NCBI RefSeq assembly: GCF_001638985.1
Contig: NW_017265157.1
Location: 835,727-899,726, forward strand
Length of the DNA stretch: 64,000 bases
Origin: Phycomyces blakesleeanus NRRL 1555(-)
Lineage: Eukaryota; Mucoromycota; Mucoromycetes; Mucorales; Phycomycetaceae
Direction of reading: 5' to 3'
The notes under the pieces were generated by a model. That model was not told the origin of the DNA, did not search any database, and saw nothing but the letters and a program-made list of their open reading frames with translations. The first letter of the stretch is position 1. Each line of letters starts with the position of its first letter. A program made the position numbers and the translations under genes. Positions 35,873 to 54,600 of this stretch are shown here, in pieces.

Positions 35873-36394
35873 TTCTAATTCCTGCTTCTTTTGTAATAAC
35901 AAGTCATTAGAACTTGTATCACAAAAATTAAGCCCAACAAGAAATGCCAGATTGAGACTTGACAAAATAATTGTCAGACATTATTTTGATGAATCCGAGA
36001 AATCGGGATAATTGACCGCAGCAGTTCTGTATGTCAAAGATACCTCATAGATAACGAACCGCAGTAATGTCTTGTAAAGATCAACCACAGTAACATCTTC
36101 TGAGCATCAACCGCAGTAAAAGGACTTCTCTTGTAATTAAATAGAGTATAATAGTTTACTGCGGATAATGCGCAGTATTAGTTTAGAAAACTATATAAGA
36201 CAATTCAATTCCTATCAATAAAAAGCATCTTTGATCCTCTCTTTGATTTTACGTATACTCCTTGATCCCCAGTGGGTTTGACCTTTTGACTTTGTTATAG
36301 TAAAAGGAAGACCAACCCAGATCGGGAACGACAAATGTCCAACAAGGCAAAAATATAACTGAAATACAGAAGATTTACATAATTCGTTTGTAAG
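35873..36394. other. noncoding stretch with short CCGCAGTAA repeats
   Basis: Copies or variants of AACCGCAGTAA occur near 36015, 36057, 36083 and 36109, and an inverted one (TTACTGCGG) near 36158. A similar motif is at about 34055. It may be the remains of another LTR. No gene seen. On the minus strand a run of five T at 36349-36353 is the nearest possible Pol III stop for the tRNA. Confidence 0.45.
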
Positions 36395-36467
36395 TGGAGA
36401 AGCTGGGCGTCGATCCCAGTGCCTCTCGCATGCTAAGCGAGCGCTCTACCATTTGAGCTACATCCCC
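36395..36467 (-). tRNA. tRNA-Ala (anticodon AGC)
   Basis: 73 nt on the minus strand starting GGGGATGTAGCTC. The anticodon arm is CTCGC-TTAGCAT-GCGAG with anticodon AGC. The T arm is CTGGG-ATCGACG-CCCAG. The acceptor stem pairs GGGGATG with CTTCTCC and has one T-T mismatch at 6:67. The G3:U70 wobble pair, the alanine identity element, is present, and the discriminator base is A. There is no intron. Its first base directly abuts the 5' end of a LINE on the plus strand. The first 13 nt are the LINE target sequence, repeated at all junctions of the array. It looks functional. Confidence 0.96.
36455..36467. repeat. LINE target site, copy 1 (in the tRNA gene)
   Basis: GAGCTACATCCCC, nucleotides 13 to 1 of the tRNA-Ala gene. 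Identical copies lie at 41211-41223, 46023-46035 and 50837-50849. Confidence 0.95.
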
Positions 36468-36674
36468 ATCTCTCTTTCACGTAAGCTACTGTTACACAAG
36501 ACATAACAAAAAAATTGGTTGCATCCATACGAAAGCTTCATCAATCCGTCCTACATCTTGTTCAAAACGTTACATCCATTGTCAAAAACATTGCATCCAT
36601 TACCACTGTTGCCTTATCTATCAGCAGAAAAAATTTCAGCCGATTCCGACAACTCTTCATTTTTGCGATCTCAA

Positions 36675-37586
36675 ATGTCAACATTGCTGCCATCCTCTGT
36701 CATGCAGGGAATGTCACCCGATCTCGCCTCATTTCTGGGGAACATGCAGGCCCAATTCATGTCACTACAACAACGTACCAATGAACTTGAATCTCTTGCC
36801 GCAACTAATGCTAAATTAACTGCTCAATTAGTTAATGCAGAAAAGCTAATTGCTGATCTCAGATCTCAATTAGCATCTCAGGGCAATTGCCAAATTACAA
36901 CAAATGCATCAACATCATCTGCACCAACCACACCCAAGGAGCCTGGCACTGAGGCTTCTACATGGGCTACAACTGCTGCTGCTGCTCACAACTCTGTTGT
37001 TGTTCCTACTGCTCTTTCTGTTTGCAAGACTCCAAGACCTCCTTCTGTTCGCCAGGTTGCTGCTTCTGCTAGAATGTTTGCCATTCCCACTGGTCCCAAA
37101 GGATATCAATATGTGTATATCCCACGTTCACGTCGTCTCACACATAGAGAAGTGCGCAACTCTTTGAAAACACTTGGTGTTGATACTGGCCGCATCTTGG
37201 ATATCAATTTTCCTGCCAAGGATGTAGTTGGCATCCTAGTTCACAACCAGTATGCTGAGAAATTCCAGACCACTCTGACCACAGTTGCCATTGAGATCTT
37301 AGATGCGTTTGACCCTTTGGATCCCAAAAACATTGCAGATCCCAAATATAAGTCTCTTTCTGATTCAGAGCTAGAAGAAGTTGCTGCTGAACTTCATTCT
37401 GATCGTTGTATGAAGGCTCTCAAGTACCTTCGTCCTCATGTTGCTGTTCCTGTTGGTCATTTCTTTTGTGATCAAGGCTGGATCTCTAAGGAAGATATTC
37501 CTGTCCATTCTGTTTCTGGTCCTGGTGCTGGTATTCATGATTTCCAATCACCATCTCGTCGTACCTCTGTTGCAATGTCTGAATGA
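36675..37586 (+). CDS. LINE A ORF1 (RNA-binding/chaperone-type protein)
   Basis: About 303 aa from the first in-frame ATG (MSTLLPSSVMQGMSP). The open frame extends further upstream without ATG. It has a short leucine-heptad coiled coil (FMSLQQRTNELESLAATNAK), a low-complexity linker, then a conserved domain (QYVYIPRSRRLTHREVRNSL, LDINFPAKDVVGILVHNQYA, LRPHVAVPVGHFFC). No CCHC knuckles are seen. Coiled coil plus a nucleic-acid-binding domain is the usual LINE ORF1 plan, with the protein trimerising on the element RNA. The stop overlaps the ORF2 start as ATGA. Confidence 0.8.
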   Translation: MSTLLPSSVMQGMSPDLASFLGNMQAQFMSLQQRTNELESLAATNAKLTAQLVNAEKLIADLRSQLASQGNCQITTNASTSSAPTTPKEPGTEASTWATTAAAAHNSVVVPTALSVCKTPRPPSVRQVAASARMFAIPTGPKGYQYVYIPRSRRLTHREVRNSLKTLGVDTGRILDINFPAKDVVGILVHNQYAEKFQTTLTTVAIEILDAFDPLDPKNIADPKYKSLSDSELEEVAAELHSDRCMKALKYLRPHVAVPVGHFFCDQGWISKEDIPVHSVSGPGAGIHDFQSPSRRTSVAMSE

Positions 37587-40500
37587 GTGAAATCTCATTA
37601 GGACTTTGGAATGCTAATGGTCTGCAGCCTCGTGCAATTTATGATGTTCTTCAACACTGTCACTCTCTACATATGCTTTTTATCACTGAAACATGGCTTC
37701 TTCCCCCATCTCGTCTCCCCACTTCTTGGTCCCAGATTCATCTTTATGGTTCACCTGTAGCTGGCAACTACAGAGGTTCTATGGGTGTTTCTGTTCTTAT
37801 TTCTCCATCTTGTCCTTATCCTGTCACTCAGATTCCTATGTCATCTAATTATGCTTTAGCCATCAAGATTGGTTCCCTCAGAATTGTATGCCTGTACTTA
37901 CCGCCCTCTATGTCCACCCATGATGCTCTTGCAGTTCTCTCATCCATTCCTTTGACCAATGACACTATTATCTGCGGCGATTTTAATTCACGTTTGGGTT
38001 CACTTACTGGTGACTATGCTACTAACACTCGAGGTCTTGCTCTTTGTCAATGGTTAGAAGAACGTGCTCTTACTGTTGTCAATGGCCAGCTCTCACCATG
38101 CATACCTACATTCATTTCATTCCGCCAAAATGTGGAGATAAGCAGTATCATTGATCTGTTTATCACTAATATGTCCCTCACCAATGCCACTCTCAACATT
38201 CATACCGACCTCTCACTCAACTCTGACCACCGTCTGCTTTCACTTTCATTTACATATGCCATCAATCCAACATCACATGCACCATCACCATCTCGCAAAA
38301 CATGGAACCTCTCACGTCTTCAAGAACCTGATGTTCTCAAACTATATGCCCACACATTTGTCACTAATTCCACCAACCTCAAATCCACTTTGCAATCGAC
38401 CTTCGAACACCCTCCTTCCTCACGTCCACCAATTGATGCACTAACTGATGAATTCAACTCACTCATTTATAATTCTTTAAGTAGCTCAATTGGCAACCGT
38501 CCTCCCCGTCCTTCCCACTGGAAAAAATTCTGGAATCCAGTACTTCAAGCAGCTGCAGAGCACCGCAATTTCTGCTACAAGAAATGGCGCCGTGCATGTG
38601 GTATAGACAGAATTCATTGGTGGGATAAGCATCTCAAAGCGCAGGCAGAATTCCGACATCAAGTGCAATCATCTAAGCGCCAATCATGGCATGCTTTCTG
38701 CAAATCAATGGAACAAGACTTTTCCAAAGCAACATCAAAGATCAAACTACTCAAACGCCGACGGCAGTCTCAGCACATGTTTCAACATAGTGATGGACCA
38801 GCAACAGCAGCAACAATTATGTGTGAGCATCTTGCATCTGTATACAGTGGCAGTATCCTCCCAGATCAGCGTCCTCCTCCTCCTCTTCACAGTACTAGTC
38901 TGCCTTTTGCCTCTGCCAACTCGCCATTTGTTTCTTCAGTGGTAGAGGGATGCATGCAATTTATGCCTAACCGCAAGGCACCAGGCCCAGATCACATCAG
39001 AGCAGAAATGTTGAAAGTAATTCGACCACAAATTGCTCCACTACTCTCACTCTTGTTCACCATCTGTTGGCAATGGTCATATGTACCTGTTATTTGGCGT
39101 CAGGCTCAAGTTTTTCCCATTTACAAAAAGGGAGATCCATCAATTGCTGCTAACTATCGACCTATTTCACTAACTTCTGTTGTGCGGAAACTGATGGAAA
39201 TGTGTATTTCTCCAGTGCTTCACAAGTTTTCCCCTCCTCTGGATGTTGCTCAGGGTGGTTTCCGTCCTAGACGTGGTGCCATGGACCAAGCTCTCTGTCT
39301 GCATGACCTCATGAAAGCACACTTCCACCGCCATCACCATTATCCTGTTGTTGCATTCTTAGACATAAAGGCAGCTTATGATACAGTAGACCGACGAGTC
39401 ATTTGGGATGCTCTTGCTAGACGTCACACACCACCAGCTTTACTTGGACTTCTTGTCAATATGTTTGATAATGTCTCTATATCTGTTCTTCTTGGCAACT
39501 TCTCTTCTCATTCTTTTTCTCCCACCACAGGCGTCCTTCAAGGTTCCGTTCTCAGTCCACATTTGTATTCAATCTATATCAACTCCCTGCCACCAATACT
39601 CCGCACAGTTGCATCACCACTCACCTCAACACATATCCCATCAACCTCTCCTTCCTCATTGGATGCTTACAATTCTCTTCTTGCCCCATCAGATGTGAAT
39701 GACTCTCAACACATTCACTTGCCTACTGCCATTAACAGTCTTCTTTTTGCTGATGATGTTGCTATCTTTGGCTCTGTCACTGATGTTCAGAGTATGCTTG
39801 ACCTTGCTGCCCAACACTCCTTCCAGCTTGGCTACCGTTGGAGTCCTTCAAAATGTGCTGTACTCTATCCTCCTTCACGATCTTTACCACGTTCTACTAT
39901 CTCTCTGTATGGCGAGTTGCTTCCTGCAGTAAATGAGTTTATATACTTGGGTATACCTTTCTGTAACAAAGGCATCTTTGGACCGTCTGTTGTCACTCAT
40001 CGTCGTTCTGGAGCATTGGCTGCTATGGCAACTCTTACTGCTGTTGGTGCATGTAGATCTGGTTTCAGTTTGCTCTTAAGTTCACGTCTGTTCAAAACCT
40101 TTATACGACCAAAATTCGAGTATGGTCTTACAATCACATGTCTTTTGCAAAAAGATGTTTTACTTCTAGAGAAAATTCAAGATAAATGCTTGCGAATGAT
40201 TGTTGGTGGCCATGCAACTTCATCTACTGCAGTCTTGAAACATATCTGCAACCTGCCCAGTATGGCTTTTCGCGTTGACATTCTCAAAACAAAATTTTGT
40301 CTTCGGGCACACACTCTTCCTTCTGGTTGTCTTCTCTCTCTGCTCCATTCTCATCATCTCCAAGCATCAACACTATCCACTCTTCACACAAACCCTCTTT
40401 TTGCCAGCATTCCCCCTGATCTTAATTGCTCCAGCCGCATAAAACTATCCAAGCACTTTGAGTCTTTTAGACAAGAAAAGTTTGCTCACTTTCGTCTCAC

Positions 40501-40903
40501 CAACACTAAGATTCTCATCCAAGCTTGCCGCCCTCTTCTTGAAGTTGATCCTGTATTGTTTCTTCCTGCTACACGCATAGAACGTGGCCGTCTAGTACGT
40601 TGGAGAATGGGCTGGTTGCCTGGTAAGCCAAAGGAGTGTGCATGTGGCTTTGATCATACTTCAAGACGCCATCTCCAATTCTGCATCACAATCCCATCTC
40701 AGCTGTTCTCTCAACTTCCAGCACCACCCACAGATGAAGACAACATCATTGACTTTGCTATATCAGCACTACCAATCTCGTCTACACATCCAAGCCCTCT
40801 ATATTGGAAAGCTCTTCTTACAATACTATGGCATATTGACATGCTATGCAATCCTAATGGCAACTACACACATGAAACCGATCATGGTTCTCTCTGGCAC
40901 TAG
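37583..40903 (+). CDS. LINE A ORF2 (endonuclease and reverse transcriptase)
   Basis: 1106 aa, intact. The N-terminal APE-type endonuclease has WNANGLQPRA, FITETWL, ICGDFNSRLG and SDHRLLSLSF. Reverse transcriptase follows from about residue 450: RKAPGPDHIRAEML, YRPISLTSVVRKLMEMC, QGGFRPRRGAMDQALCL, VAFLDIKAAYDTVDRRV, GVLQGSVLSPHLYSIYINSL and the catalytic LLFADDVAIFG. The C-terminus has RWRMGWLPGKPKECACGFDH plus His/Cys, a zinc-binding end common in LINEs. No RNase H. It should nick the tRNA-gene target and prime reverse transcription there. Start codon ATG overlaps the ORF1 stop by four bases. Confidence 0.93.
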   Translation: MSEISLGLWNANGLQPRAIYDVLQHCHSLHMLFITETWLLPPSRLPTSWSQIHLYGSPVAGNYRGSMGVSVLISPSCPYPVTQIPMSSNYALAIKIGSLRIVCLYLPPSMSTHDALAVLSSIPLTNDTIICGDFNSRLGSLTGDYATNTRGLALCQWLEERALTVVNGQLSPCIPTFISFRQNVEISSIIDLFITNMSLTNATLNIHTDLSLNSDHRLLSLSFTYAINPTSHAPSPSRKTWNLSRLQEPDVLKLYAHTFVTNSTNLKSTLQSTFEHPPSSRPPIDALTDEFNSLIYNSLSSSIGNRPPRPSHWKKFWNPVLQAAAEHRNFCYKKWRRACGIDRIHWWDKHLKAQAEFRHQVQSSKRQSWHAFCKSMEQDFSKATSKIKLLKRRRQSQHMFQHSDGPATAATIMCEHLASVYSGSILPDQRPPPPLHSTSLPFASANSPFVSSVVEGCMQFMPNRKAPGPDHIRAEMLKVIRPQIAPLLSLLFTICWQWSYVPVIWRQAQVFPIYKKGDPSIAANYRPISLTSVVRKLMEMCISPVLHKFSPPLDVAQGGFRPRRGAMDQALCLHDLMKAHFHRHHHYPVVAFLDIKAAYDTVDRRVIWDALARRHTPPALLGLLVNMFDNVSISVLLGNFSSHSFSPTTGVLQGSVLSPHLYSIYINSLPPILRTVASPLTSTHIPSTSPSSLDAYNSLLAPSDVNDSQHIHLPTAINSLLFADDVAIFGSVTDVQSMLDLAAQHSFQLGYRWSPSKCAVLYPPSRSLPRSTISLYGELLPAVNEFIYLGIPFCNKGIFGPSVVTHRRSGALAAMATLTAVGACRSGFSLLLSSRLFKTFIRPKFEYGLTITCLLQKDVLLLEKIQDKCLRMIVGGHATSSTAVLKHICNLPSMAFRVDILKTKFCLRAHTLPSGCLLSLLHSHHLQASTLSTLHTNPLFASIPPDLNCSSRIKLSKHFESFRQEKFAHFRLTNTKILIQACRPLLEVDPVLFLPATRIERGRLVRWRMGWLPGKPKECACGFDHTSRRHLQFCITIPSQLFSQLPAPPTDEDNIIDFAISALPISSTHPSPLYWKALLTILWHIDMLCNPNGNYTHETDHGSLWH

Positions 40904-40981
40904 CTCTAATAATTTAATATCTGTTTTCTTTTACTTCTTTTCTTCTTATTTTTGTCTTCTCATTCATGAAAGGTTTCTAGA

Positions 40982-41046
40982 TCTGCAATTCTGTCTCCTC
41001 CCTTTCACTGTTACAACTTTTTACACAGCTGCAAAGTGGAGAGCAG
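40982..41046 (+). promoter_or_regulatory. conserved 3' UTR block, LINE A
   Basis: A stretch starting TCTGCAATTCTGTCTCCTCC and ending GCAAAGTGGAGAGCAG is nearly identical in all three units (45792-45856 and 50606-50670), although the UTR around it has diverged. Part can pair: CTGTCTCC with GGAGAGCAG. Probably an RNA structure, perhaps recognised by the ORF2 protein. Confidence 0.6.
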
Positions 41047-41160
41047 GTTCAGTCTTTTAGCTTAGTATTGTTTATTTCTCTTCTTCTATTCATTTTTTTG
41101 TCTTTTGTGATCCTTTTAGACTTTTTTTTTTCTTTTTCTTTTGTACTTGGGAGGCTATAT

Positions 41161-41172
41161 GATCTATAGATC
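41161..41172. repeat. 12-bp perfect palindrome in LINE A 3' UTR
   Basis: GATCTATAGATC, present also in unit B at 45971-45982. In unit C (50785-50796) the last C became T, destroying the symmetry. Confidence 0.75.
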
Positions 41173-41210
41173 GCCAGCGATATCTCCTTAATAAAAATAA
41201 TCTTTAATCT

Positions 41211-41223
41211 GAGCTACATCCCC
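41211..41223. repeat. LINE target site, copy 2
   Basis: GAGCTACATCCCC between units A and B; identical to the tRNA-Ala 5' end. Confidence 0.95.
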
Positions 41224-41459
41224 ACTGCTCTTTCGCTTAAGCATTTTATTTGTCTGGTTCCAAAATTTTATTTTTGACGAATCCACATATAAAGTGTATC
41301 CATCCATCAACATCTTTACGCAAAACGATCCATCCATCACGAAAAACGTACCTCCCATTGCCAAAAGTAGTGCAGTCCTTGTCCTTGGTATCCCAGCTGT
41401 CAGCAAAAAAAATTTCAGCTCAATCAGACAACATCACGCCATCTGCATTCTCAATCCTA

Positions 41460-42365
41460 ATGGCCAATTTGCAAATCGGCAACATGCAGGGATTGCCAAC
41501 CGAGCTTACCTCATTCCTGACAACATTGCAGGCACAAATCATGAATGTGCAAAACAGAACCGACCAGTTGGAGCGACTTGCAGCAGAGAATGCAAGACTA
41601 ACTACTGAATTAGACCATGCTAGAACAACAATTGCTAATCTGCAGACGCAATTAGGATCTCAGAGTGCACCTGAAAAAAACTTTTCAGAAATTTCACTTT
41701 CGAACCCAGCCGGCGCAGTAGGTGCTCCTGACAAAAACAAAGAATCAGGTCTGGAAGCCTCCACTTGGGCTACTAAAGCCAGTGTTTCTCTTCCTGTAAC
41801 TGCCCCAAAAATGTCTACTGTTCCCTCTGCTCGCCGTATTGCAGCTTCTGTTCGTATGTTTGCTCTTCCCTCTGGTCCTTCAGGTTATGAATATGTTTAT
41901 ATTCCAAGATCAAGACGCCTTAAGCACAAAGAAGTCCGTTCCTCTCTCCGCACTCTTGGTGTGGATTCTTCTCGACTTTTGGACATTAACTTCCCAGCCA
42001 GAGGTGTCATTGGCATCCTTGTTCATGTCCAGTATGCTGATACATTTAAGGCCAAACTGACAACTGCTTCTGTTGAGATTTTGGACGCATTTGATCCACT
42101 TGATCCTGATAATGTTGCTGATCCCAAGTATGCATCTCTGTCCACTCATGAACTTGCCAACACTGCTGCCATGCTTCACCATGATAGATGTCTCCAAGCC
42201 CTACAGTTCTTGCGCCCACACGTTGCTATCCCAGTTGGTCACTTCTTTTGTGAGGAAGGGTGGATCAGTGAAGATGAAATACCAACACGTACTACTCTTA
42301 CCAATGCTACTGGCGGGTCTTTGTTCAAACGTCAGCGCAGCTCATCAGTCACTATGTCTGAATGA
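41460..42365 (+). CDS. LINE B ORF1
   Basis: About 301 aa from ATG 41460 (MANLQIGNMQGLPTELTSFL). It has the same layout as in unit A: coiled coil (IMNVQNRTDQLERLAAENAR), linker, then YEYVYIPRSRRLKHKEVRSS, RGVIGILVHVQYADTFKAK and LRPHVAIPVGHFFCEEGW. No zinc knuckle. The frame is also open upstream to 41250 but without an ATG. Stop codon overlaps the ORF2 start (ATGA). Confidence 0.8.
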   Translation: MANLQIGNMQGLPTELTSFLTTLQAQIMNVQNRTDQLERLAAENARLTTELDHARTTIANLQTQLGSQSAPEKNFSEISLSNPAGAVGAPDKNKESGLEASTWATKASVSLPVTAPKMSTVPSARRIAASVRMFALPSGPSGYEYVYIPRSRRLKHKEVRSSLRTLGVDSSRLLDINFPARGVIGILVHVQYADTFKAKLTTASVEILDAFDPLDPDNVADPKYASLSTHELANTAAMLHHDRCLQALQFLRPHVAIPVGHFFCEEGWISEDEIPTRTTLTNATGGSLFKRQRSSSVTMSE

Positions 42366-45300
42366 GTAATCTCAATATCGGATTATGGAATGCCAATGGC
42401 CTGCAACCCAGAGCCATTCAAGATACCCTTCAACACTGTCAGTCCTTACATATGCTCTTCATTACAGAAACATGGCTTCTCTCTCCCTCACATCTTCCCA
42501 CATCATGGTCACAAATTCACTTGTATGGGTCTCCTGTAGCTGGCACCTATAGGGGCTCTATGGGTGTTTCTGTTCTCATATCACCTCACTGTCCTTATGC
42601 CGTCACTCAAATACCTATGCCCTCCAAATATGCTCTGGCTGTCAAAATTGGCTCACTCAGAATTGTATGCTTATATCTTCCACCAAATATGCCCACTCAT
42701 GATGTCCTACATGTACTCTCTTCCATTCCTTTAACACATGATACCATTCTTTGTGGTGACTTCAATGCAAGACTTGGCTCTGTTACTGGTGACTATGCAT
42801 CAAATTCTCGTGGACTGGCACTATGTTCTTGGATAGAAGAGAGATCTCTATCAGTTGTAAATGCAGATCTTGCACCTTGCATACCAACATATATTTCTTT
42901 CCACAACAACTATGAAATCAGCAGTATTATTGACCTCTTTATAACTAATATGCCACTCATCAATCCTTCTCTTCATATTGCTACTGACTTGTCTCTTGGA
43001 TCAGATCATCGCCTTTTATCACTTTCCTTTACCTATGATCTACAGCACTCTACCAATATGCCACCACCATTACGCAAGACATGGAACCTCTCACGCCTCA
43101 ATGAACCTGATGTCCATGCTCTTTATGCTCATACCTTCAATCAAAACTCGACCTCCCTCCTTTCCACCTTGCAAGACATTGTACAGAATCCACCACTCAC
43201 TAGACCCAACATTGATGCTATCACTGATGAGTTCAATTTACTCATTTATGACTCATTAAATAGCTCAATTGGACATCGACCCTCTCGCCCAAATCATTGG
43301 AAATCCTTCTGGAATGTAGCTTTGCAAACAGCAGCAGATCGTCGTAACCAATGTTACAAAAAATGGCGCCTAGCAATAGGTATTGACAAAGTTGTTTGGT
43401 GGACTAAACACAAGCATGCACAGGCCGAATTCCGATCTCAGGTTCAGCAAGCAAAACGTCAGTCTTGGCATGTCTTTTGTCAGTCTATGGAACGTGACTT
43501 CAGCAAAGCAACATCAAAGATAAAGCAGTTAAAACGCCGTAGACAGCCGCAACATACTTTCCAGCACGATGATGGACCAGCCGTAGCAGCAGCAACAATG
43601 TGTGACTATTTGGCAACAGTATATAGTGGACATATACTTCCAGCAACCCGACCACCAGCACCAATGACCACTTGTAACAGTGTGCCTTTTGCCTCTGATG
43701 ACTCTCCCTTTACCTCACCAATTGTAGAGGAATTCATGCAATTTATGCCTAACCGCAAGGCACCAGGACCAGACCATATCAGAGCTGAAATGCTAAAACC
43801 TATAAAAACACATGTCTCACCCATTCTTACTTTATTATTTACAGTTTGCTGGCAATGGTCATATGTTCCAAGTTTGTGGCGCCAAGCCCAGGTCTTCCCA
43901 ATCTTCAAGAAGGGTAGTCCAACTGACCCGGCAAACTACCGACCAATCTCCTTGACCTCTGTACTGCGTAAGCTTTTTGAGATGTGTATAGCCCCCCAGT
44001 TGCACAAGTACTCTCCTCCTTTGGATGTGGCTCAAGGTGGTTTTCGTCCTCGCCGTGGTGCTTTGGATCAAGCTCTCTGTCTCCATGATCTGATGAAAGC
44101 CTATTATCACCGTCATAAGCACTACCCTGTTGTTGCATTTCTGGATATCAAGGCTGCCTATGATACAGTGGATCGACGAATCATCTGGCATGCTTTACAA
44201 AAACGTTGCACTCCACCGGCACTTTTGGGTCTCTTGGTTAACATGTTTGACAATGTCTCTATCTGTGTCCTTTTGGGTAACTTTTCTTCACACTCGTTCT
44301 CACCTGCCACTGGGGTTCTCCAAGGTTCTGTCCTCAGTCCACATCTGTATTCAATATATATCAACTCCCTGCCCCCATTGCTCCGCACAGTTGCTCACTC
44401 ACAAACTACAACCCATGTTCCATCACCCTCTCCTACCTCATTGGATGCATATAATGCTCTTCTTGCTCCTTCAGGTGTAGATGGCTTTGGACATATTCAT
44501 TTCTCAACACCCATCAATTCTCTGCTCTTTGCCGACGATGTAGCTATTTTTGGTTCTCTTTCAGACGTTCAGGCCATGCTAGACCTTGCTGCAGACCACT
44601 CTCTTACTCTTGGATATCGATGGAGCCCCACCAAATGTGAAGTTATATATCCCAAAACACGTGCAAGCTCGCCAGTTTCTCTTCTTTTATATGGTCAAGT
44701 TCTCCCTGCCACTGACCTGTTTATTTATCTGGGTGTTCCTTTTGCCAATAAGGGTATTTCTTCCAAGTCCATTGCCACTCATAGACGTTCTGGTACACTC
44801 GCTACAATGGCAACCCTAAACTCTGTTGGTGCTTGTCGTTCTGGTTTTTCTCTGCTGCTCAGTTCACGATTGTATAAGACCTTTGTCCGCCCAAAGTTTG
44901 AATATGGTTTGGCGATCTCCACTCTACTGAAACAAGATATCAAAGTGCTGGAGTCCATTCAAGATAAGTGTCTTCGCATGATTGTTGGGGGGCATGCCAC
45001 GTCCTCTACAATTGTGTTAAAGCACATCTGCAATCTGCCAAGTATGAAGTTTCGTGCTGATGCTCTTATGGCCAAGTTCTGTATAAGATCACGCTTTTCG
45101 CCAGCCCAGTGCCTTCTGTCTCTTTTGCACCGTCATCATACCGTCTATTCTTCACTTGTCTCCTTGGGAAAAACCCATCTTCTATCCAATCTCCCTCCAA
45201 CACTCAAACTTCGAAGCCCTAGTGCTGTAAAAAATCATTTTGAAAGCATTAGAGAAGCTGGATTTGCAACCTTTCTCCAGTCTAATACGCAAGTTCTCAT

Positions 45301-45685
45301 TCAAGCATGCCGCCCAGTTCTTGGAGTTGATCCAATCTTGTTTTTGCCAGCCTCACGTGTGGAACGTAGCCGTTTGATTCGTTGGAGAATGGGGTGGTTA
45401 CCAGGCAAACCAAAGGAATGTCCTTGTGGATCAGATCACACCTCACGCCGCCATTTGTTGGATTGCCCACTTGTTCCTATGGCACTATTTGAACAGTTGC
45501 CTCAACCTGACCAAGATCAGATACACAGAATTGATTTTGCCATCACATCCTTGCCTTTGTCATCTCAAGAACCGCGACCTGCTTACTGGATACCACTGCT
45601 GACTATTCTCTGGCACATAGATGTTATATGTAATCCTGATGGTGACTATTCACATGAGACTGAACATGGTGCTCTTTGGATATAA
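42362..45685 (+). CDS. LINE B ORF2 (endonuclease and reverse transcriptase)
   Basis: 1107 aa, no lesion. The APE endonuclease shows GLWNANGLQPRA, FITETWLLSP, LCGDFNARLG and SDHRLLSLSF. The RT shows MPNRKAPGPDHIRAEML, NYRPISLTSVLRKLFEM, VVAFLDIKAAYDTVDRR and LLFADDVAIFG. The C-terminal zinc motif is CPCGSDHTSRRHLLDCP. All catalytic residues are present, and this is the best candidate for an active source copy. Translation probably depends on termination-reinitiation after ORF1, since no separate leader exists. Confidence 0.95.
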   Translation: MSNLNIGLWNANGLQPRAIQDTLQHCQSLHMLFITETWLLSPSHLPTSWSQIHLYGSPVAGTYRGSMGVSVLISPHCPYAVTQIPMPSKYALAVKIGSLRIVCLYLPPNMPTHDVLHVLSSIPLTHDTILCGDFNARLGSVTGDYASNSRGLALCSWIEERSLSVVNADLAPCIPTYISFHNNYEISSIIDLFITNMPLINPSLHIATDLSLGSDHRLLSLSFTYDLQHSTNMPPPLRKTWNLSRLNEPDVHALYAHTFNQNSTSLLSTLQDIVQNPPLTRPNIDAITDEFNLLIYDSLNSSIGHRPSRPNHWKSFWNVALQTAADRRNQCYKKWRLAIGIDKVVWWTKHKHAQAEFRSQVQQAKRQSWHVFCQSMERDFSKATSKIKQLKRRRQPQHTFQHDDGPAVAAATMCDYLATVYSGHILPATRPPAPMTTCNSVPFASDDSPFTSPIVEEFMQFMPNRKAPGPDHIRAEMLKPIKTHVSPILTLLFTVCWQWSYVPSLWRQAQVFPIFKKGSPTDPANYRPISLTSVLRKLFEMCIAPQLHKYSPPLDVAQGGFRPRRGALDQALCLHDLMKAYYHRHKHYPVVAFLDIKAAYDTVDRRIIWHALQKRCTPPALLGLLVNMFDNVSICVLLGNFSSHSFSPATGVLQGSVLSPHLYSIYINSLPPLLRTVAHSQTTTHVPSPSPTSLDAYNALLAPSGVDGFGHIHFSTPINSLLFADDVAIFGSLSDVQAMLDLAADHSLTLGYRWSPTKCEVIYPKTRASSPVSLLLYGQVLPATDLFIYLGVPFANKGISSKSIATHRRSGTLATMATLNSVGACRSGFSLLLSSRLYKTFVRPKFEYGLAISTLLKQDIKVLESIQDKCLRMIVGGHATSSTIVLKHICNLPSMKFRADALMAKFCIRSRFSPAQCLLSLLHRHHTVYSSLVSLGKTHLLSNLPPTLKLRSPSAVKNHFESIREAGFATFLQSNTQVLIQACRPVLGVDPILFLPASRVERSRLIRWRMGWLPGKPKECPCGSDHTSRRHLLDCPLVPMALFEQLPQPDQDQIHRIDFAITSLPLSSQEPRPAYWIPLLTILWHIDVICNPDGDYSHETEHGALWI

Positions 45686-45791
45686 TTTAGACTTTTTCTT
45701 TTCTTTCATAGCTCTTCACTTTTCATTGTTCTTTACTCCCTTTATCTCTCTTCTTTCTCTTTTGTTCTTTGCTGTCTGAAAAGTTCTTTGT

Positions 45792-45856
45792 TCTGCAATT
45801 CTGTCTCCTCCCTTTCACTGTTACAACTATTTTCACAGCTGCAAAGTGGAGAGCAG
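45792..45856 (+). promoter_or_regulatory. conserved 3' UTR block, LINE B
   Basis: Second copy of the block described for unit A; differs by only a few bases. Confidence 0.6.
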
Positions 45857-46022
45857 ATTCAGCCATTGAAGCTAGTATGATTTGATCTTCTCTTTCCCCT
45901 CTCTTTTTTTTGTCTTTTGTGATCCCTTGGGACTTTTTTATATCTTCTTTTTGTACTTTGGAGGCTATATGATCTATAGATCGCCAGCAATATCTCCTTT
46001 AATAAAATATAATCTTTAACCT

Positions 46023-46035
46023 GAGCTACATCCCC
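46023..46035. repeat. LINE target site, copy 3
   Basis: GAGCTACATCCCC between units B and C; followed by an extra GC before the shared LINE 5' end, as expected from imprecise 5' joining. Confidence 0.95.
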
Positions 46036-46273
46036 GCACTGCTCTTTCGCTTAAGCATTTTATTTGTCTGGTTCCAAAATTTTATTTTTGACGAATCCAT
46101 ATATAAAGTGTATCCATCCATCAACATCTTTACGCAAAACGATCCATCCATCACGAAAAACGTACCTCCCATTGCCAAAAGTAGTGCAGTCCTTGTCCTT
46201 GGTATCCCAGCTGTCAGCAAAAAAAAATTCAGCTCAATCAGACAACATCACGCCATCTGCATTCTCAATCCCA

Positions 46274-47179
46274 ATGGCCAATTTGCAAATCGGCAACATG
46301 CAGGGATTGCCAACCGAGCTTACCTCATTCCTGACAACATTGCAGGCACAAATCATGAATGTGCAAAACAGAACCGACCAGTTGGAGCGACTTGCAGCAG
46401 AGAATGCAAGACTAACTACTGAATTAGACCATGCTAGAACAACAATTGCTAATCTGCAGAAGCAATTAGGATCTCAGAGTGCACCTGAAAAAAACTTTTC
46501 AGAAATTTCACTTTCGAACCCAGCCGGCGCAGTAGGTGCTCCTGACAAAAACAATGAACCAGGTCTGGAAGCCTCCACTTGGGCTAGTAAAGCCAGTGTT
46601 TCTCTTCCTGTAACTGCCCCAAAAATGTCTGCTGTTCCCTCTGCTCGCCGTATTGCAGCTTCTGTTCGTATGTTTGCTCTTCCCTCTGGTCCTTCAGGTT
46701 ATGAATATGTTTATATTCCAAGATCAAGACGCCTTAAGCACAAAGAAGTCCGTTCCTCTCTCCGCACTCTTGGTGTGGATTCTTCTCGACTTTTGGACAT
46801 TATCTTCCCAGCCAGAGGTGTCATTGGCATCCTTGTTCATGTCCAGTATGCTGATACATTTAAGGCCAAACTGACAACTGCTTCTGTTGAGATTTTGGAC
46901 GCATTTGATCCACTTGATCCTGATAATGTTGCTGATCCCAAGTATGCATCTCTGTCCACTCATGAACTTGCCAACACTGCTGCCATGCTTCACCATGATA
47001 GATGTCTCCAAGCCCTACAGTTCTTGCGCCCACATGTTGCTATCCCAGTTGGTCACTTCTTTTGTGAGGAAGGGTGGATCAGTGAAGATGAAATACCAAC
47101 ACGTACTACTCTTACCAATGCTACTGGCGGGTCTTTGTTCAAACGTCAGCGCAGCTCATCAGTCACTATGTCTGAATGA
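46274..47179 (+). CDS. LINE C ORF1
   Basis: About 301 aa from ATG 46274. Same coiled coil and C-terminal domain as in unit B, with a handful of substitutions (for example LDIIFPARG for LDINFPARG, and LQKQL for LQTQL). Open and probably translatable. Stop overlaps ORF2 as ATGA. Confidence 0.8.
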   Translation: MANLQIGNMQGLPTELTSFLTTLQAQIMNVQNRTDQLERLAAENARLTTELDHARTTIANLQKQLGSQSAPEKNFSEISLSNPAGAVGAPDKNNEPGLEASTWASKASVSLPVTAPKMSAVPSARRIAASVRMFALPSGPSGYEYVYIPRSRRLKHKEVRSSLRTLGVDSSRLLDIIFPARGVIGILVHVQYADTFKAKLTTASVEILDAFDPLDPDNVADPKYASLSTHELANTAAMLHHDRCLQALQFLRPHVAIPVGHFFCEEGWISEDEIPTRTTLTNATGGSLFKRQRSSSVTMSE

Positions 47180-50100
47180 GTAATCTCAATATCGGATTAT
47201 GGAATGCCAATGGCCTGCAACCCAGAGCCATTCAAGATACCCTTCAACACTGTCAGTCCTTACATATGCTCTTCATTACAGAAACATGGCTTCTCTCTCC
47301 CTCACATCTTCCCACATCATGGTCACAAATTCACTTGTATGGGTCTCCTGTAGCTGGCACCTATAGGGGCTCTATGGGTGTTTCTGTTCTCATATCACCT
47401 CACTGTCCTTATGCCGTCACTCAAATACCTATGCCCTCCAAATATGCTCTGGCTGTCAAAATTGGCTCACTCAGAATTGTATGCTTATATCTTCCACCAA
47501 ATATGCCCACTCATGATGTCCTACATGTACTCTCTTCCATTCCTTTAACACATGATACCATTCTTTGTGGTGACTTCAATGCAAGACTTGGCTCTGTTAC
47601 TGGTGACTATGCATCAAATTCTCGTGGACTGGCACTATGTTCTTGGATAGAAGAGAGATCTCTATCAGTTGTAAATGCAGATCTTGCACCTTGCATACCA
47701 ACATATATTTCTTTCCGCAACAACTATGAAATCAGCAGTATTATTGACCTCTTTATAACTAATATGCCACTCATCAATCCTTCTCTTCATATTGCTACTG
47801 ACTTGTCCCTTGGATCAGATCATCGCCTTTTATCACTTTCCTTTACCTATGACCTACAGCACTCTACCAATATGCCACCACCATTACGCAAGACATGGAA
47901 CCTCTCACGCCTCAATGAACCTGATGTCCATGCTCTTTATGCTCATATCTTCACTCAAAACTCAACCTCCCTCCTTTCCACCTTGCAAGACATTGTACAG
48001 AATCCACCGCTCACTAGACCCAACATTGATGCTATCACTGATGAGTTCAATTTACTCATTTATGACTCATTAAATAGCTCAATTGGACATCGACCCTCTC
48101 GCCCAAATCATTGGAAATCCTTCTGGAATGTAGCTTTGCAAACAGCAGCAGATCGTCATAACCAATGTTACAAAAAATGGCGCCTAGTAATAGGTATTGA
48201 CAAAGTTGTTTGGTGGACTAAACACAAGCATGCACAGGCCGAATTCCGATCTCAGGTTCAGCAAGCAAAACGTCAGTCTTGGCATGTCTTTTGTCAGTCT
48301 ATGGAACGTGACTTCAGCAAAGCAACATCAAAGATAAAGCAGTTAAAACGCCGTAGACAGCCACAACATACTTTCCAGCACGATGATGGACCAGCCGTAG
48401 CAGCAGCAACAATGTGTGACTATTTGGTAACAGTATATAGTGGACATATACTTCCAGCAACCCGACCACCAGCACCAATGACCACTTGTAACAGTGTGCC
48501 TTTTGCCTCTGATGACTCTCCCTTTACCTCACCAATTGTAGAGGAATTCGTGCAATTTATGCCTAACCGCAAGGCACCAGGACCAGACCATATCAGAGCT
48601 GAAATGCTAAAACCTGTAAAAACACATGTCTCACCCATTCTTACTTTATTATTTACAGTTTGCTGGCAATGGTCATATGTTCCAAGTTTGTGGCGCCAAG
48701 CCCAGGTCTTCCCAATCTTCAAGAAGGGTAGTCCAACTGACCCGGCAAACTACCGACCAATCTCCTTGACCTCTGTACTGCGTAAGCTTTTTGAGATGTG
48801 TATAGCCCCCCAGTTGCACAAGTACTCTCCTCCTTTGGATGTAGCTCAAGGTGGTTTTCGTCCTCGCCGTGGTGCTTTGGATCAAGCTCTCTGTCTCCAT
48901 GATCTGATGAAAGCCTATTATCACCGTCATAAGCACTACCCTGTTATTGCATTTCTGGATATCAAGGCTGCCTATGATACAGTGGATCGACGAATCATCT
49001 GGCATGCTTTACAAAAACGTTGCACTCCACCGGCACTTTTGGGTCTCTTGGTTAACATGTTTGACAATGTCTCTATCTGTGTCCTTTTGGGTAACTTTTC
49101 TTCACACTCGTTCTCACCTGCCACTGGGGTTCTCCAAGGTTCTGTCCTCAGTCCACATCTGTATTCAATATATATCAACTCCCTGCCCCCATTGCTCCGC
49201 ACAGTTGCTCACTCATAAACTACAACCCATGTTCCATCACCCTCTCCTACCTCATTGGATGCATATAATGCTCTTCTTGCTCCTTCAGGTGTAGATGGCT
49301 TTGGACATATTCATTTCTCAACACCCATCAATTCTCTGCTCTTTGCCGACGATGTAGCTATTTTTGGTTCTCTTTCAGACGTTCAGGCCATGCTAGACCT
49401 TGCTGCAGACCACTCTCTTACTCTTGGATATCGATGGAGCCCCACCAAATGTGAAGTTATATATCCCAAAACACGTGCAAGCTCGCCAGTTCCACTTCTT
49501 TTATATGGTCAAGTTCTCCCTGCCACTGACCTGTTTATTTATCTGGGTGTTCCTTTTGCCAATAAGGGTATTTCTTCCAAGTCCATTGCCACTCATAGAC
49601 GTTCTGGTACACTTGCTACAATGGCAACACTAAACTCTGTTGGAGCTTGTTGTTCTGGTTTTTCTCTGCTGCTCAGTTCACGACTGTATAAAACTTTTGT
49701 TCGCCCAAAGTTTGAATATGGTTTAGCTATTTCCACTCTGCTGAAGCAAGATATTAAAGTTCTGGAGTCCATTCAAGATAAGTGTCTTTGCATGATTGTT
49801 GGGGGGCATGCCACGTCCTCTACAATTGTGTTGAAGCACATCTGCAATCTGCCAAGTATGAAGTTTCGTGCAGATGTTCTTATAGTCAAATTTTGTATCA
49901 GATCACACTTTCTGCCTGCCCAGTGCCTTTTGTCTCTTTTACACCGTCATCATACCATCTATTCTTCACTTGTCTCCCTGGGAAAAACCAACCTTCTGTC
50001 ACATCTCCCTCCAACACTCAAACTCCAAAGCCCTAGTGCAGTAAAAAACCATTTTGAAAGCATTAGAGAAGCTGGATTTACAACCTTTCTCCAGTCCAAT

Positions 50101-50499
50101 ACACAAGTTCTCATTCAAGCATGCCGCCCAGTTCTTGGAGTTGATCCAATTTTGTTTCTGCCAGCCTCACATGTGGAACGTGGCCGTTTGATTCGTTGGA
50201 GAATGGGATGGTTGCCAGGCAAACCAAAGGAATGTCCTTGTGGATCTGATCACACCTCACGCTGCCATTTGTTGGATTGCCCACTTGTTCCTGTGGCACT
50301 ATTTGAACAGTTGCCTCAACCTGACCATGACCAGATACACAGAATTGATTTTGCCATCACATCCTTGCCTTTGTCATCTCAAGAACCGCGACCTGCTTAC
50401 TGGATACCACTGCTGACTATTCTCTGGCACATAGATATTATATGTAATCCTGATGGTGACTATTCACATGAGACTGAACATGGTGCTCTTTGGATATAA
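47176..50499 (+). pseudogene. LINE C ORF2, broken by one stop codon
   Basis: Same protein as in unit B, but codon 681 (49216-49218) is TAA where B has CAA, just upstream of the FADD box. The remaining 414 codons continue in the same frame. The first part would end within the RT palm, so the copy should be unable to reverse transcribe. Other replacements hit Arg codons (Arg to Cys near 49650, 49789 and 50261; Arg to His near 48155). Confidence 0.92.
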
Positions 50500-50605
50500 T
50501 ATAGACTTTTTCTTTTCTTTCATAGCTCTTCACTTGTCATTGTTCTTTACTCCCTTTATCTCTCTTCTTTCTCTTTTGTCCTTTGCTGTCTGAAAAGTTC
50601 TTTGT

Positions 50606-50670
50606 TCTGCAATTCTGTCTCCTCCCTTTCACTGTTACAACTATTTTTACAGCTGCAAAGTGGAGAGCAG
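50606..50670 (+). promoter_or_regulatory. conserved 3' UTR block, LINE C
   Basis: Third copy of the conserved block. Confidence 0.6.
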
Positions 50671-50836
50671 GTTCAGCCATTGAAGCTAGTATGATTTGAT
50701 CTTCTCTTTCCCCTCTCTTTTTTTTGTCTTTTGTGATCCCTTGGGACTTTTTTATATCTTCTTTTTGTACTTTGGAGGCTATATGATCTATAGATTGCCA
50801 GCAATATCTCCTTTAATAAAATATAATCTTTAACCT

Positions 50837-50849
50837 GAGCTACATCCCC
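50837..50849. repeat. LINE target site, copy 4 (array end)
   Basis: GAGCTACATCCCC ending the array; followed by TTATTGTGTTATAGTGG, the presumed original 5' flank of the tRNA-Ala gene. Confidence 0.92.
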
Positions 50850-51120
50850 TTATTGTGTTATAGTGGTCACAGTAAAACATAACAATCTAACAATATAAAC
50901 AAACAGCCAAAAGTCAAGTTGAGTGTAAAGATATTTTTTATTACTGTATAAATTAAGAGGTTTTATTAGTTTTTGGTGCCTGACTGTTAGATATATTAGT
51001 AATTTAAGCTCCAGCCAATAAAAATAAGAATAAAAAACTGGTGAAGCCCCTAACGTCTTTTGGTGAATATATTTTTTTATATATATCAAAATTTATATAT
51101 ATAATATATTTTCACTATAA
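50850..51120. other. former upstream flank of the tRNA gene
   Basis: AT-rich noncoding DNA, now about 14.4 kb from the tRNA because of the LINE array. Confidence 0.6.
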
Positions 51121-51665: not shown

Positions 51666-54600
51666 CTACTGATTGTGGGTTGGCGAGGGCCAGACGATAT
51701 GTCTAATGACCCTGTCCTTAGTATTGTGGACGAGGCCAGCCATCCCCTTGAAGGACTTCACATCCACTATCCTCATCTCGCCCTGCGAGTGGTTGCTCAA
51801 CACAGAGAAGAGCATGACTGGCAAGGGCCTGATGTTGGAAAGACTCTCGGTGGCTGCAAAGAGCCTGGTCACTGCTTTAACAGTGTGGGAAAAGAGTTTG
51901 CGGACAAATCCATAACTTTCAAAAAACATAATTAAATTATGATTAATATCAACTTTTAATAATATAGAATATAACTAACAACACTTACTCTCACATATGT
52001 TTGAGCACAACAAGATTGTTAGCTCGAACATGTCTACTGTCAAAGGAGAACCGGACTCTGTAAACCACCGAGTCTTTCCACATCTTCATGGTTCAAACCA
52101 CTGAGTCTTGTTCCTCGAAGGAAGAAACTCCTTCTTCTGCCCAGAAAGGCAACAACTGTTGGACGAGGTCCTCCCATTCCATGCCAATGGTGTTGACCAA
52201 CTTGGCCATGCTATACCTGGTCGGACTGGACCACAGCTGAGGACCAGCAACATCATCACTTGCAACCTCGAAGTTGCTGGTCGTTCTGTCAGCTGGTCCA
52301 GTCCTGGCTGGATGGTTGCTGCAGCAGTGGCTGATGGCTGCCATCTGGAAAAGAACATTTTCCATGTTTTTTCCGGGCTCCTTCCTGGACTTGATTGCAG
52401 AGGTATAGGCACCAATCGTGCGTTCTATTGGACAGCAGCTGTAAGCCCGCAAAGGGCCCATTTCCCACAACATGAAACCAAGATGAACCAGCATGTGCTG
52501 GTTCATCACGAATATGTTGGATTTCAGCTTACTGTCCAAAATCTTGCACCTCAGAAAGGAGTGCCAGTGGCCAATTGCCCTATAAAACTCATTAAAAACC
52601 GGATAGAAATATATATCTAAGCCACTTACTGCTCCACGGCAACAATGTCGCTGGCAGTGATGCTCCATTGTTGGACAATGGAACACACCAGAACCAGGTC
52701 TCTCACGGCCTGCTTTGCATCTGCAAAGCAGAGGTGGTCGATTACCATGGTTGATACAACAAACAAGAGAAAGTCCATCCAATCGACGACCTTCCTCTTG
52801 CTGTTTGATTCCTTCATTGACCTCCACGTACCAGTAAATGCCATCGGTATATCTGCCCTGGATGTGCTGACTGCTTTTTCGATGTCATCTAGGCTAACAT
52901 TCAGGGCAAAGGGATACTCAAGTTGTTGCAGGCGTTCTTGGAGGTGCATTCCATGGGATTTTCTGTCTGGGCCTGCAGTCCCAGGGCAGAATTTGCCACC
53001 AAGGGATTGATAGAGCTGATGCCCTGTTCCATGACCTAGGAGGTGCATCTCGTCCTGGCCAAAGAAAGCAGAACTGGTGAGTGTGGATAACTCTGCAAAG
53101 GCATTGTATCTCCCACCACCAGGTCTATAAAATGATGTTTGTGGTTTTTTTGATATTTCATAACTTACGCTTCCTTCGGCTCTGCGAATGCTCCCTACGT
53201 CCCTCATGGGGGCAGGACCCTTGCTCTCCAGGAAGCATATGGTCTTGGCAATGCTTTCACCATGCGCAAAACAATGGCAGCAGCCGTATTGTGCATTGTG
53301 ATGCATAAGGTTCATCAAGTCAGATACAGCTGGAGTATCTTCAGTTGCCACGACAAGATGAACCTTATACACCACATACTGGTCTCTGTCCCAGCACTTC
53401 ACTCCACTTGTCTGCAAGGCTCGCAGGTTGGCAAGGATGGGCTCCAAAAACGAAGCAATGTTCTTTGGGTGCTTAGGCTCTGGGATGATGGCCAGCTGCA
53501 TCATGTTACCCTTCTTGTACCTAAATATATTATATTAGTATATATAAATATACATCTAAATCAATGGGTTTTTTTTATTTACCTTTTGGCAGGGTTAATA
53601 TTCATGTTAATAATGTGAATGATGCTAGCTGACATGGCAGCGTCCTTGAAGGGGTTGAACTGGTCAACAAACATAGACACCACCATGTCACCCTGGCCAA
53701 CAATCCCACCTGCGAGCAGTCTATGGATGCCATCTCCATCAAGAATATCCTTACAGACATTTGATCGGCCACCAGCCAAAACCTCCATGCCATAGGCGAT
53801 CTTTGCCCATTCTTCAGGGTGAGCCAACTTGAAGCGTAATTTCTCTGAGAGAGGCACTACCTGGTATGTCTGTACAGGTGATATAGTGCCTCTCTCATGC
53901 TGGTACCGCGGTCCATTGCAGTGAGGGCACACCTCATTCTCAACGATTGAGTTTCCAGGCTCGACATCAGGAAAATGAAAGCACCCACTGGCACACATGT
54001 CATACACCTGTGCCTTGACTGTGTATTCTTGCTTGAGCAAGGTATCCACCTTTTAATATGACAGAAGTGCATCCGTTTTAGCTAATACAATAATAAGTAT
54101 ATGTAATATAGTAGATATGTGATAGTAATAAACTTACGGGATCCACATTCTGTCATGTACTCATTTACGATCTTGACAGACTGATCATAGATTTCACAAG
54201 AAACACTGTTCTCAAAAAACAAGGAGAACAACTCCAGACTAACAGCCTCAGCACTGCTGTTGGGAGTGTACATTGGTACAAACTGGTCGTACTCAATGTT
54301 GGCCTGCTCTGGTTCAGCTTGGGCCATTCCTTGGTTTTGGACACGTGTGAATCCAGGACCATTCTCTAATATATTTACACAGTTAATATTTAACATAAAC
54401 ATAATCATATGTAATAATGTTATTATTAACATTTTCTTTTAATTGTTCTTACCAGAGGTGTACTCCACCTCAACATTGTTGGAATTGGCTTCCATAGGAG
54501 AAGCGTCCTCTTCATCAGCCTCAACGTTGTTAGTGGCAGCAGCCAAGAAACCATCAAAGCCAATTGAATCATCGACAGAGGCTTTATCGTTGATATCCAT

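Follow-up and report, generated by a model that had tools for sequence, protein, structure and literature searches.

Introduction

Elements such as R1, R2, SART and TRAS insert with base specificity into multicopy targets, these being ribosomal DNA or telomeric repeats. Among the elements associated with tRNA genes, the dictyostelid TRE elements lie 40-54 bp upstream or 40-150 bp downstream of the gene, and NLTR-A lies 2-6 bp upstream (PMC5911963, PMC5006619; statements on published systems refer here and below to the cited parts of the sources). Three NeSL-related long interspersed nuclear elements (LINEs), NeSL-1_TV, LIN15_SM and LIN25_SM, are specific for tRNA-Pro, tRNA-Arg and tRNA-Glu genes, respectively, and, apart from those of the R1 and Tx1 clades, LINEs with a specific target are described as having a restriction-like endonuclease (PMC4640811). 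Several lineages of Dada DNA transposons duplicate nucleotides (nt) 8-13 of the tRNA, in the A box, with families from Perkinsus targeting TAGCTC (PMC8869645), and an L1-like Mucoromycotina element, Grem-LINE1 of Mucor, is described as pericentric (PMC7377519). Here, we describe a LINE family from Phycomyces blakesleeanus NRRL 1555(-), three copies of which are stacked beside a tRNA-Ala(AGC) gene in the last 64 kb of contig C24 (899,726 bp) of the 60-contig, 53.5-Mb assembly (hereafter referred to as the window). It is very probable that this apparently L1-like family inserts into tRNA genes by target-primed reverse transcription.

The Phycomyces LINE resembles R1, R2, SART and TRAS in its base-specific use of a multicopy target and differs from them in the target itself; unlike mammalian L1, which ends in poly(A) and inserts with loose specificity, it has a TTTAAYCT end and is specific for tRNA genes. 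Like TRE5, TRE3 and NLTR-A, it is an apurinic/apyrimidinic (AP)-endonuclease LINE found at tRNA genes; with TRE5 it shares a location upstream of the tRNA, in the opposite orientation, and NLTR-A is the nearest to it in position. The dictyostelid elements are described as inserting outside the gene, over a range of positions, whereas the target of the Phycomyces LINE lies within the gene, nt 1-13 of which are duplicated (PMC5911963, PMC5006619). TRE5 and TRE3 also differ in their oligo(A) end and -1 frameshift, as opposed to the absence of poly(A) and the ATGA overlap seen here, and NLTR-A differs in its RNase H and its distance of 2-6 bp, as opposed to insertion at base 1 with 0-2 extra nt and no RNase H match. 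The NeSL-related LINEs share the tRNA-gene specificity, and the statement of the initial annotation of this locus that known tRNA-linked retrotransposons insert near the gene and do not read the gene itself therefore fails; their clade has a restriction-like endonuclease and no AP endonuclease, in contrast to the N-terminal AP-type endonuclease and the several tRNA isotypes of the Phycomyces LINE (PMC4640811). Dada elements differ in being DNA transposons that lie inside the tRNA gene (PMC8869645). Grem-LINE1 differs in being pericentric by description, with no tRNA targeting mentioned in the cited part of its source (PMC7377519); named proteins from Mucor, Rhizopus and Umbelopsis are roughly 40-55% identical to the product of Phycomyces open reading frame (ORF) 2, and Grem-LINE1 may belong to the same wider lineage.

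The new feature is the combination of an AP endonuclease, a base-exact duplication of nt 1-13, the use of several tRNA types, an intact tRNA gene and the occupation of most genes of two tRNA families; no fungal LINE with such an insertion mode was found in the literature searched, mainly titles and abstract openings. An AP-endonuclease LINE here uses a tRNA gene at base precision and leaves it intact, in a fungus. The natural tRNA variants, the occupied and empty genes and the shifted and off-target cases present in a single genome provide a test of whether such a LINE finds genes transcribed by RNA polymerase III (Pol III) through DNA sequence, through Pol III factors or through both, and gene insertion is a field in which endonucleases and ORF2 proteins able to use a repeated site while keeping it unbroken are of interest.

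Results and discussion

The LINE array of the window

The target gene of the array is an intact tRNA-Ala(AGC) gene on the minus strand (36395..36467; ARAGORN call, 36394-36467). On the LINE strand, its nt 1-13 have the sequence GAGCTACATCCCC (36455..36467, +) and form the 5' copy of the target-site duplication. They are followed, all on the plus strand, by a full-length LINE A (36468..41210) with the 3' end TTTAATCT and no poly(A), a 13-bp target-site duplication at the border between LINE A and LINE B (41211..41223), a first copy of LINE B (41224..46022), a further duplication between the two B copies (46023..46035) with 2 extra nt (GC) after it, a second copy of LINE B (46038..50836) and the last 13-bp duplication (50837..50849). 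The DNA past 50849 would once have flanked the tRNA gene on its upstream side. GAGCTACATCCCC is therefore found at 36455, 41211, 46023 and 50837, against a shuffling expectation of 0.03 occurrences. The borders given in the initial annotation (36467/36468, 41211, 46023 and 50837) proved exact, and the three LINEs are stacked head-to-tail as it proposed; A and B turned out to be separate subfamilies, with 69% nucleotide identity overall and 72% in ORF2.

Each of the three LINEs lying between the 13-mers contains an ORF1 and an ORF2 encoding an endonuclease and a reverse transcriptase. In LINE A, ORF1 (36675..37586, +; about 303 amino acids) was taken from an internal ATG rather than from the longest possible start in the ORF list, at 36519, and its stop overlaps the start of ORF2 in an ATGA; ORF2 (37583..40903, +; 1106 amino acids) has an AP-type endonuclease and a reverse transcriptase and no internal stop. 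In the first LINE B copy, ORF1 (41460..42365, +; 301 amino acids) also starts at an internal ATG and ORF2 (42362..45685, +; 1107 amino acids) is intact. The two B copies are 98.1% identical to each other, but the second has an ORF2 broken by one in-frame stop (TAA) and carries the GC dinucleotide at its 5' junction, which excludes a simple tandem duplication of the first copy as its origin.

The 13-mer and the LINE ends across the genome

The Ala 13-mer occurs at 44 places in the 53.5-Mb assembly (reversed control, 0), and GAGCCAAGAAGGC, which corresponds to nt 1-13 of tRNA-Thr(AGT), at 33 (reversed control, 1). Many LINE copies are bordered by 13-mers other than that of Ala. Over 4799 bp, the first LINE B copy of the window shares 99.5% identity with L009, a copy located at base 1 of a tRNA-Thr(AGT) gene and accompanied by a duplication of the Thr gene's own nt 1-13, and LINE A is 99.6% identical, over 4016 bp, to another Thr-site copy. 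Near-identical copies thus carry the 13 bp of whichever tRNA adjoins them, and the 13-mer is accordingly a sequence of the target rather than of the LINE.

The LINEs lie upstream of the tRNA, in antisense orientation, and their 3' ends are constant (TTTAAYCT or close variants, without poly(A)). In a DNA search with the 3' end of LINE B, the best 40 of 81 candidates all abutted a tRNA 13-mer (34 exact, six with 1-3 mismatches). A table of 67 LINE 3' ends contained 64 adjoining tRNA nt 1-13; these ends were found partly through tRNA 13-mers, with a pattern that missed at least three tRNA-flanked ends (L012, L018 at 3347, and L034), and the 40-end set and the 20-end set described below are less biased. 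The latter was built from exact matches to TAATCTTTAAYCT, which is present at 34 places, 19 of them continuing with GAG or AAG; of the remaining 15, one (L147) is convincingly similar to a LINE, and no such similarity was found at the other 14. The resulting 20 LINE ends included 17 with a tRNA-derived flank, two of which (L072 and L073) rest on the 3' motif and LINE sequence past the junction. With tRNA-flanked 3' ends at 40/40 (the best 40 of 81 candidates), 64/67 and 17/20, the family is a target-site-specific retrotransposon without long terminal repeats. The genome searches scored the best 42 of 304, 40 of 81 and 63 of 2452 candidates, so old copies are under-counted.

At the other end, the 5' truncation points vary, yet the truncated copies L020, L047, L075, L080, L081, L082, L085 and L086 abut base 1. 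Of the 52 recognised full-length 5' junctions, 34 have no extra nt, 15 have one and three have two, one of the last being the C35 duplicate described below. At C1:62314, where a LINE A lies at a Thr junction, 12 nt of the Ala 13-mer come before the LINE 5' end; most simply, the RNA would have started within a donor at an Ala site and then been inserted at Thr.

A degraded LINE 3' end is present about 0.9 kb from a tRNA-Ile gene (L097; C8:632767), together with an Ile-like 13-mer (3 mismatches), which suggests a trace of old arrays with decayed duplications.

Occupancy of the tRNA genes

The genome contains 15 tRNA-Ala(AGC) genes, that of the window and 14 others, identical over 73 nt. The upstream side was read for all of them, and in 12 a LINE adjoins base 1 directly, with 0-1 extra nt, both subfamilies, A and B, being represented; a truncated LINE B lies 45 bp away from the gene at C10:538902, and two genes (C3:2581498 and C25:374721) are empty. 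A LINE is present at base 1 of 10 of the 12 identical tRNA-Thr(AGT) genes and absent from the other two. The corresponding values are seven of 14 for tRNA-Ile(AAT), two of the seven apparently being copies of one C15 locus, and two of 11 for tRNA-Phe(GAA), a further place with a Phe-type 13-mer (L109) having been dropped because ARAGORN found no tRNA there. Six junctions are of the Tyr type; in the single tRNA-Tyr gene read, the LINE lies 1 nt from base 1. ARAGORN called this gene (L017) tRNA-Asn with a short intron, and its sequence appears to be that of an intron-bearing tRNA-Tyr(GTA). Two junctions correspond to Lys, each with 2 mismatches to the tRNA 13-mer. Among tRNA genes that lack GCTC at nt 10-13, 16 were sampled (four Gly, seven Arg and five Asn), none of which has an alignable LINE at base 1.

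Alignment is blind to very short LINE pieces. Of 49 upstream stretches checked, five that have no alignable LINE at base 1 start with 8-10 of the 10 letters of a LINE 5' start (L106, Phe; L118, L120 and L065, Lys; L126, Gly), for a random rate of 0.4% in the window. To judge from these matches, some of these tRNA genes, including one Gly gene, may have lost most of a LINE.

The junctions and the change of the 13 bp with the target tRNA bear out the interpretation given in the initial annotation, of a target-site duplication of tRNA nt 1-13 with the full tRNA surviving on one side. The 13-bp flank proposed for copies elsewhere was found at all 40 scored ends (the best 40 of 81 candidates), and a LINE was found at base 1 of 12 of the 15 tRNA-Ala(AGC) genes. 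Targeting is broader than the tRNA-Ala genes initially considered, extending to Thr, Ile, Phe, Tyr and Lys.

Insertion mechanism

Target-primed reverse transcription leaves constant 3' ends, 5' ends truncated to varying degrees and a duplicated target, and the joint occurrence of these features here identifies it as the very probable mode of insertion. As judged from the junctions, the first nick would lie on the sense strand of the tRNA and separate nt 13 from nt 14, within the A box of the Pol III promoter (TRGCTC/A, the slash marking the nick). The freed 3'-OH would prime synthesis of complementary DNA on the LINE RNA, and the second strand would be cut 13 bp off, at the -1/+1 boundary. As the sequences show, nt 1-13 of the tRNA hit are duplicated on the far side of the LINE, the tRNA gene being left complete. 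A whole tRNA gene beside the new copy would be available for the next hit, and later copies would enter between the tRNA and the older copies, such that arrays would grow from the tRNA side. Recognition would probably combine an endonuclease preference around TC/A with a further feature of the tRNA gene.

Array growth and recombination

Growth from the tRNA side was examined by counting stops in ORF2. Stop-free ORF2 copies accounted for 11/17 of those nearest the tRNA, versus 6/17 of those farther out (one-sided Mann-Whitney test, p=0.03). In eight arrays, the farthest scored copy had more stops in six, fewer in one and an equal number in one (sign test, p=0.06). The analysis covered 34 of 43 ORF2 rows, the nine omitted having no clear array position, and C35:434708 was counted as one element with its tRNA-side start. 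These counts provide modest evidence consistent with insertion beside the tRNA that would push older copies outward.

The sequence at C35:345600-352500 (L060, L061) repeats positions 44148-51048 of the window, comprising part of the LINE array and its right-hand flank, and is 99.9-100% identical over the 2.5 kb compared; it is either a recent segmental duplication or an assembly duplicate.

An origin of the window array by tandem duplication was also considered and was rejected, as the 5' junctions of the B copies are not the same and their sequences diverge at 1.9% of sites. Duplication is retained solely for the partial copy of the array on C35 and a small number of tRNA loci.

Site selection and alternative explanations

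Several observations weigh against the insertion model outlined above. A tRNA 13-mer in register is missing from four LINE ends. At a tRNA-Glu gene (C1:3190203; L014:1356-1440, at C1:3185.4 kb), the 13-bp duplication is shifted to -8..+5, with one mismatch between its copies, and the nick would have been made at TCCTC/AATGG, again a CTC/A. At C4:2574744, a short LINE 3' piece is associated with a duplication of GAGCCATGTACAAC, with a nick apparently at TGGCTC/AG and no tRNA in the 0.7 kb read. The end at C13:343833 has no exact duplication partner within 0.9 kb, and that at C4:1242388 is a short degraded LINE end. Occupancy is also uneven: an alignable LINE was found directly at base 1 in none of the 11 tRNA-Lys(CTT) genes examined (nine of about 22 Lys(CTT)-like genes plus two at LINEs; in two of the 11, another element comes first and then a LINE), nor at base 1 of four other GCTC-type genes (two Lys-TTT, Thr-CGT and Cys), and GCTCA therefore predicts occupancy poorly. 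Conversely, a Gly gene without GCTC (L126) begins with letters that agree with the LINE B 5' end at 9/10 positions and may be what is left of a LINE. With respect to the order of the copies, the Tyr array on C4 opposes the age gradient, and an element on C44 has an Ala 13-mer at its 5' side and a Thr 13-mer at its 3' side (L029:6069-6083 and L030:925-937), implying that recombination between arrays also shapes them.

Two explanations would do without repeated targeting of the tRNA gene. If the 13-mer were the LINE's own end, carried to each site, as the initial annotation had itself envisaged, its presence at every border of the window would follow; however, closely related copies bear the Thr, Ile, Phe or Ala 13-mer that matches the adjoining gene, the sequence varying with the tRNA hit, and this explanation is refuted, to the point of being practically untenable. 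The high occupancy might otherwise stem mainly from recombination copying blocks of tRNA plus LINE, rather than from many insertions. Such copying is visible at several loci: the 60 bp on the 3' side of the tRNA are identical between C35:439800 and C10:1561272, the 3' flank of C10:1503240 is 83% like theirs, the 3' flanks of C44:93582 and C44:114995 are 86% alike, the two Ile loci on C15 are apparently copies, and C35 repeats part of the window array. By contrast, no comparable 3' flank similarity was seen among the remaining occupied Ala genes or among the Thr genes with a LINE (15-60 bp compared), the 5' junctions or truncation points differ, and both A and B are found at Ala genes. As the 12 occupied Ala genes form at least nine groups by 3' flank, block copying is refuted as the sole cause, and we consider it very unlikely to be the main one.

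The choice of the site itself is open to two accounts, neither of which we would call probable. According to the first, which comes close to that mark, the AP endonuclease of the LINE would read the internal promoter of Pol III genes (the A box, TRGCTC/A) and would thus accept the whole class of tRNA genes; by copying exactly nt 1-13, it would never break the host gene and would always renew it as a target, and the family would constitute an L1-type self-regenerating insertion system that fills most tRNA-Ala(AGC) and tRNA-Thr(AGT) genes. The short motif is insufficient to account for the strong preference for tRNA genes, given that the window contains as many as 112 GCTCA and 17 TRGCTCAR sites, and the possible remnant at the Gly gene lowers the likelihood of an endonuclease reading the A box. 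Alternatively, Pol III factors (TFIIIB or TFIIIC) on the tRNA gene might recruit the LINE, a mode put forward earlier for Dictyostelium TRE5 and yeast Ty3, with the endonuclease merely cutting the nearest suitable site, such as CTC/A; this is a serious possibility, if one that also has to be held tentatively. It would accommodate the abundance of the motif in the window despite the location of 64/67 LINE 3' ends at tRNA nt 1-13, the out-of-register duplication at CTC/A in tRNA-Glu and the possible remnant at a Gly gene without GCTC. It is less readily reconciled with the insertion at TGGCTC/AG that has no tRNA in the 0.7 kb read, or with the presence of only 0 or 1 extra nt at 49/52 full-length 5' junctions, as opposed to the 40-54 bp range described for TRE5 (PMC5911963). 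Taken together, the recurrence of CTC/A at the apparent nick of both the Glu and the C4 insertions and the excessive frequency of the motif alone favour a combination of endonuclease preference and a feature of the tRNA gene.

Mimicry of the native tRNA upstream region by the LINE 5' end was also considered and rejected. A weight matrix built from 35 upstream stretches without an alignable LINE or element D (see below) gave scores no better than random: for LINE A, LINE B and two C-type 5' ends, 28-44% of window positions scored as high.

ORF1, ORF2 and classification

In Pfam, ORF2 matched PF14529/PF03372 (N-terminal AP-type endonuclease) and PF00078 (reverse transcriptase), with no RNase H in the scan. 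E36, Y105, D133, D191, H216 and A723-D724-D725, which we take to be the catalytic residues, were unchanged in 31/31 aligned ORF2 sequences. With both domains present and these residues kept, the family falls among the AP-endonuclease LINEs. In a profile search against solved structures, the best match was human L1 ORF2p (4-780; E 4.9e-44), ahead of R2; in a single-sequence search, R2 came slightly first, over the reverse transcriptase only.

The AlphaFold model of LINE B ORF1 contains a predicted helix at 14-68 (coiled coil), followed by a beta-alpha-beta-beta-alpha arrangement like that of an RNA recognition motif and then two helices. This predicted architecture may resemble that of L1 ORF1p, the fold search (Foldseek) giving no match at E≤0.001. 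No Pfam domain above the cut-off was found in ORF1; there was one weak match, in one of three copies.

Protein relatives of ORF2 at roughly 40-57% identity were found in Rhizopus, Mucor, Umbelopsis and others, and at higher identity in Phycomyces. At the DNA level, no relative outside Phycomyces was confirmed in viral_contigs or genome_contigs searched with ORF2 and an ORF2 alignment.

Element D and other mobile elements

A repeat of about 1 kb (hereafter referred to as element D), starting near TCACGTGTGTTGTA, begins on the upstream side of many tRNA genes (Phe, Lys, Gly, Asn, Arg and Ile), at a distance of about 10-13 bp, and is also found after some LINE arrays. It was identified at L065:1-1158, L034:7100-8099, L087, L092, L106, L107, L112, L118, L119, L126, L129, L136, L139 and L145. 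The 10 bp ahead of D at L065, L118 and L126 resemble the LINE 5' end; the L065 copy was used as the reference, and in L118 and L126 D aligns just after the LINE-like start. The sequence gives the impression that LINEs were entered by D this far from the tRNA.

Genes of other mobile elements abound at the contig end (window positions 18607-23508, 869-1975, 52626-53504 and 29829-30497), which encode a retroelement polyprotein with an integrase and a chromodomain, a MULE transposase, a tnp2 transposase and a PIF1-like helicase.

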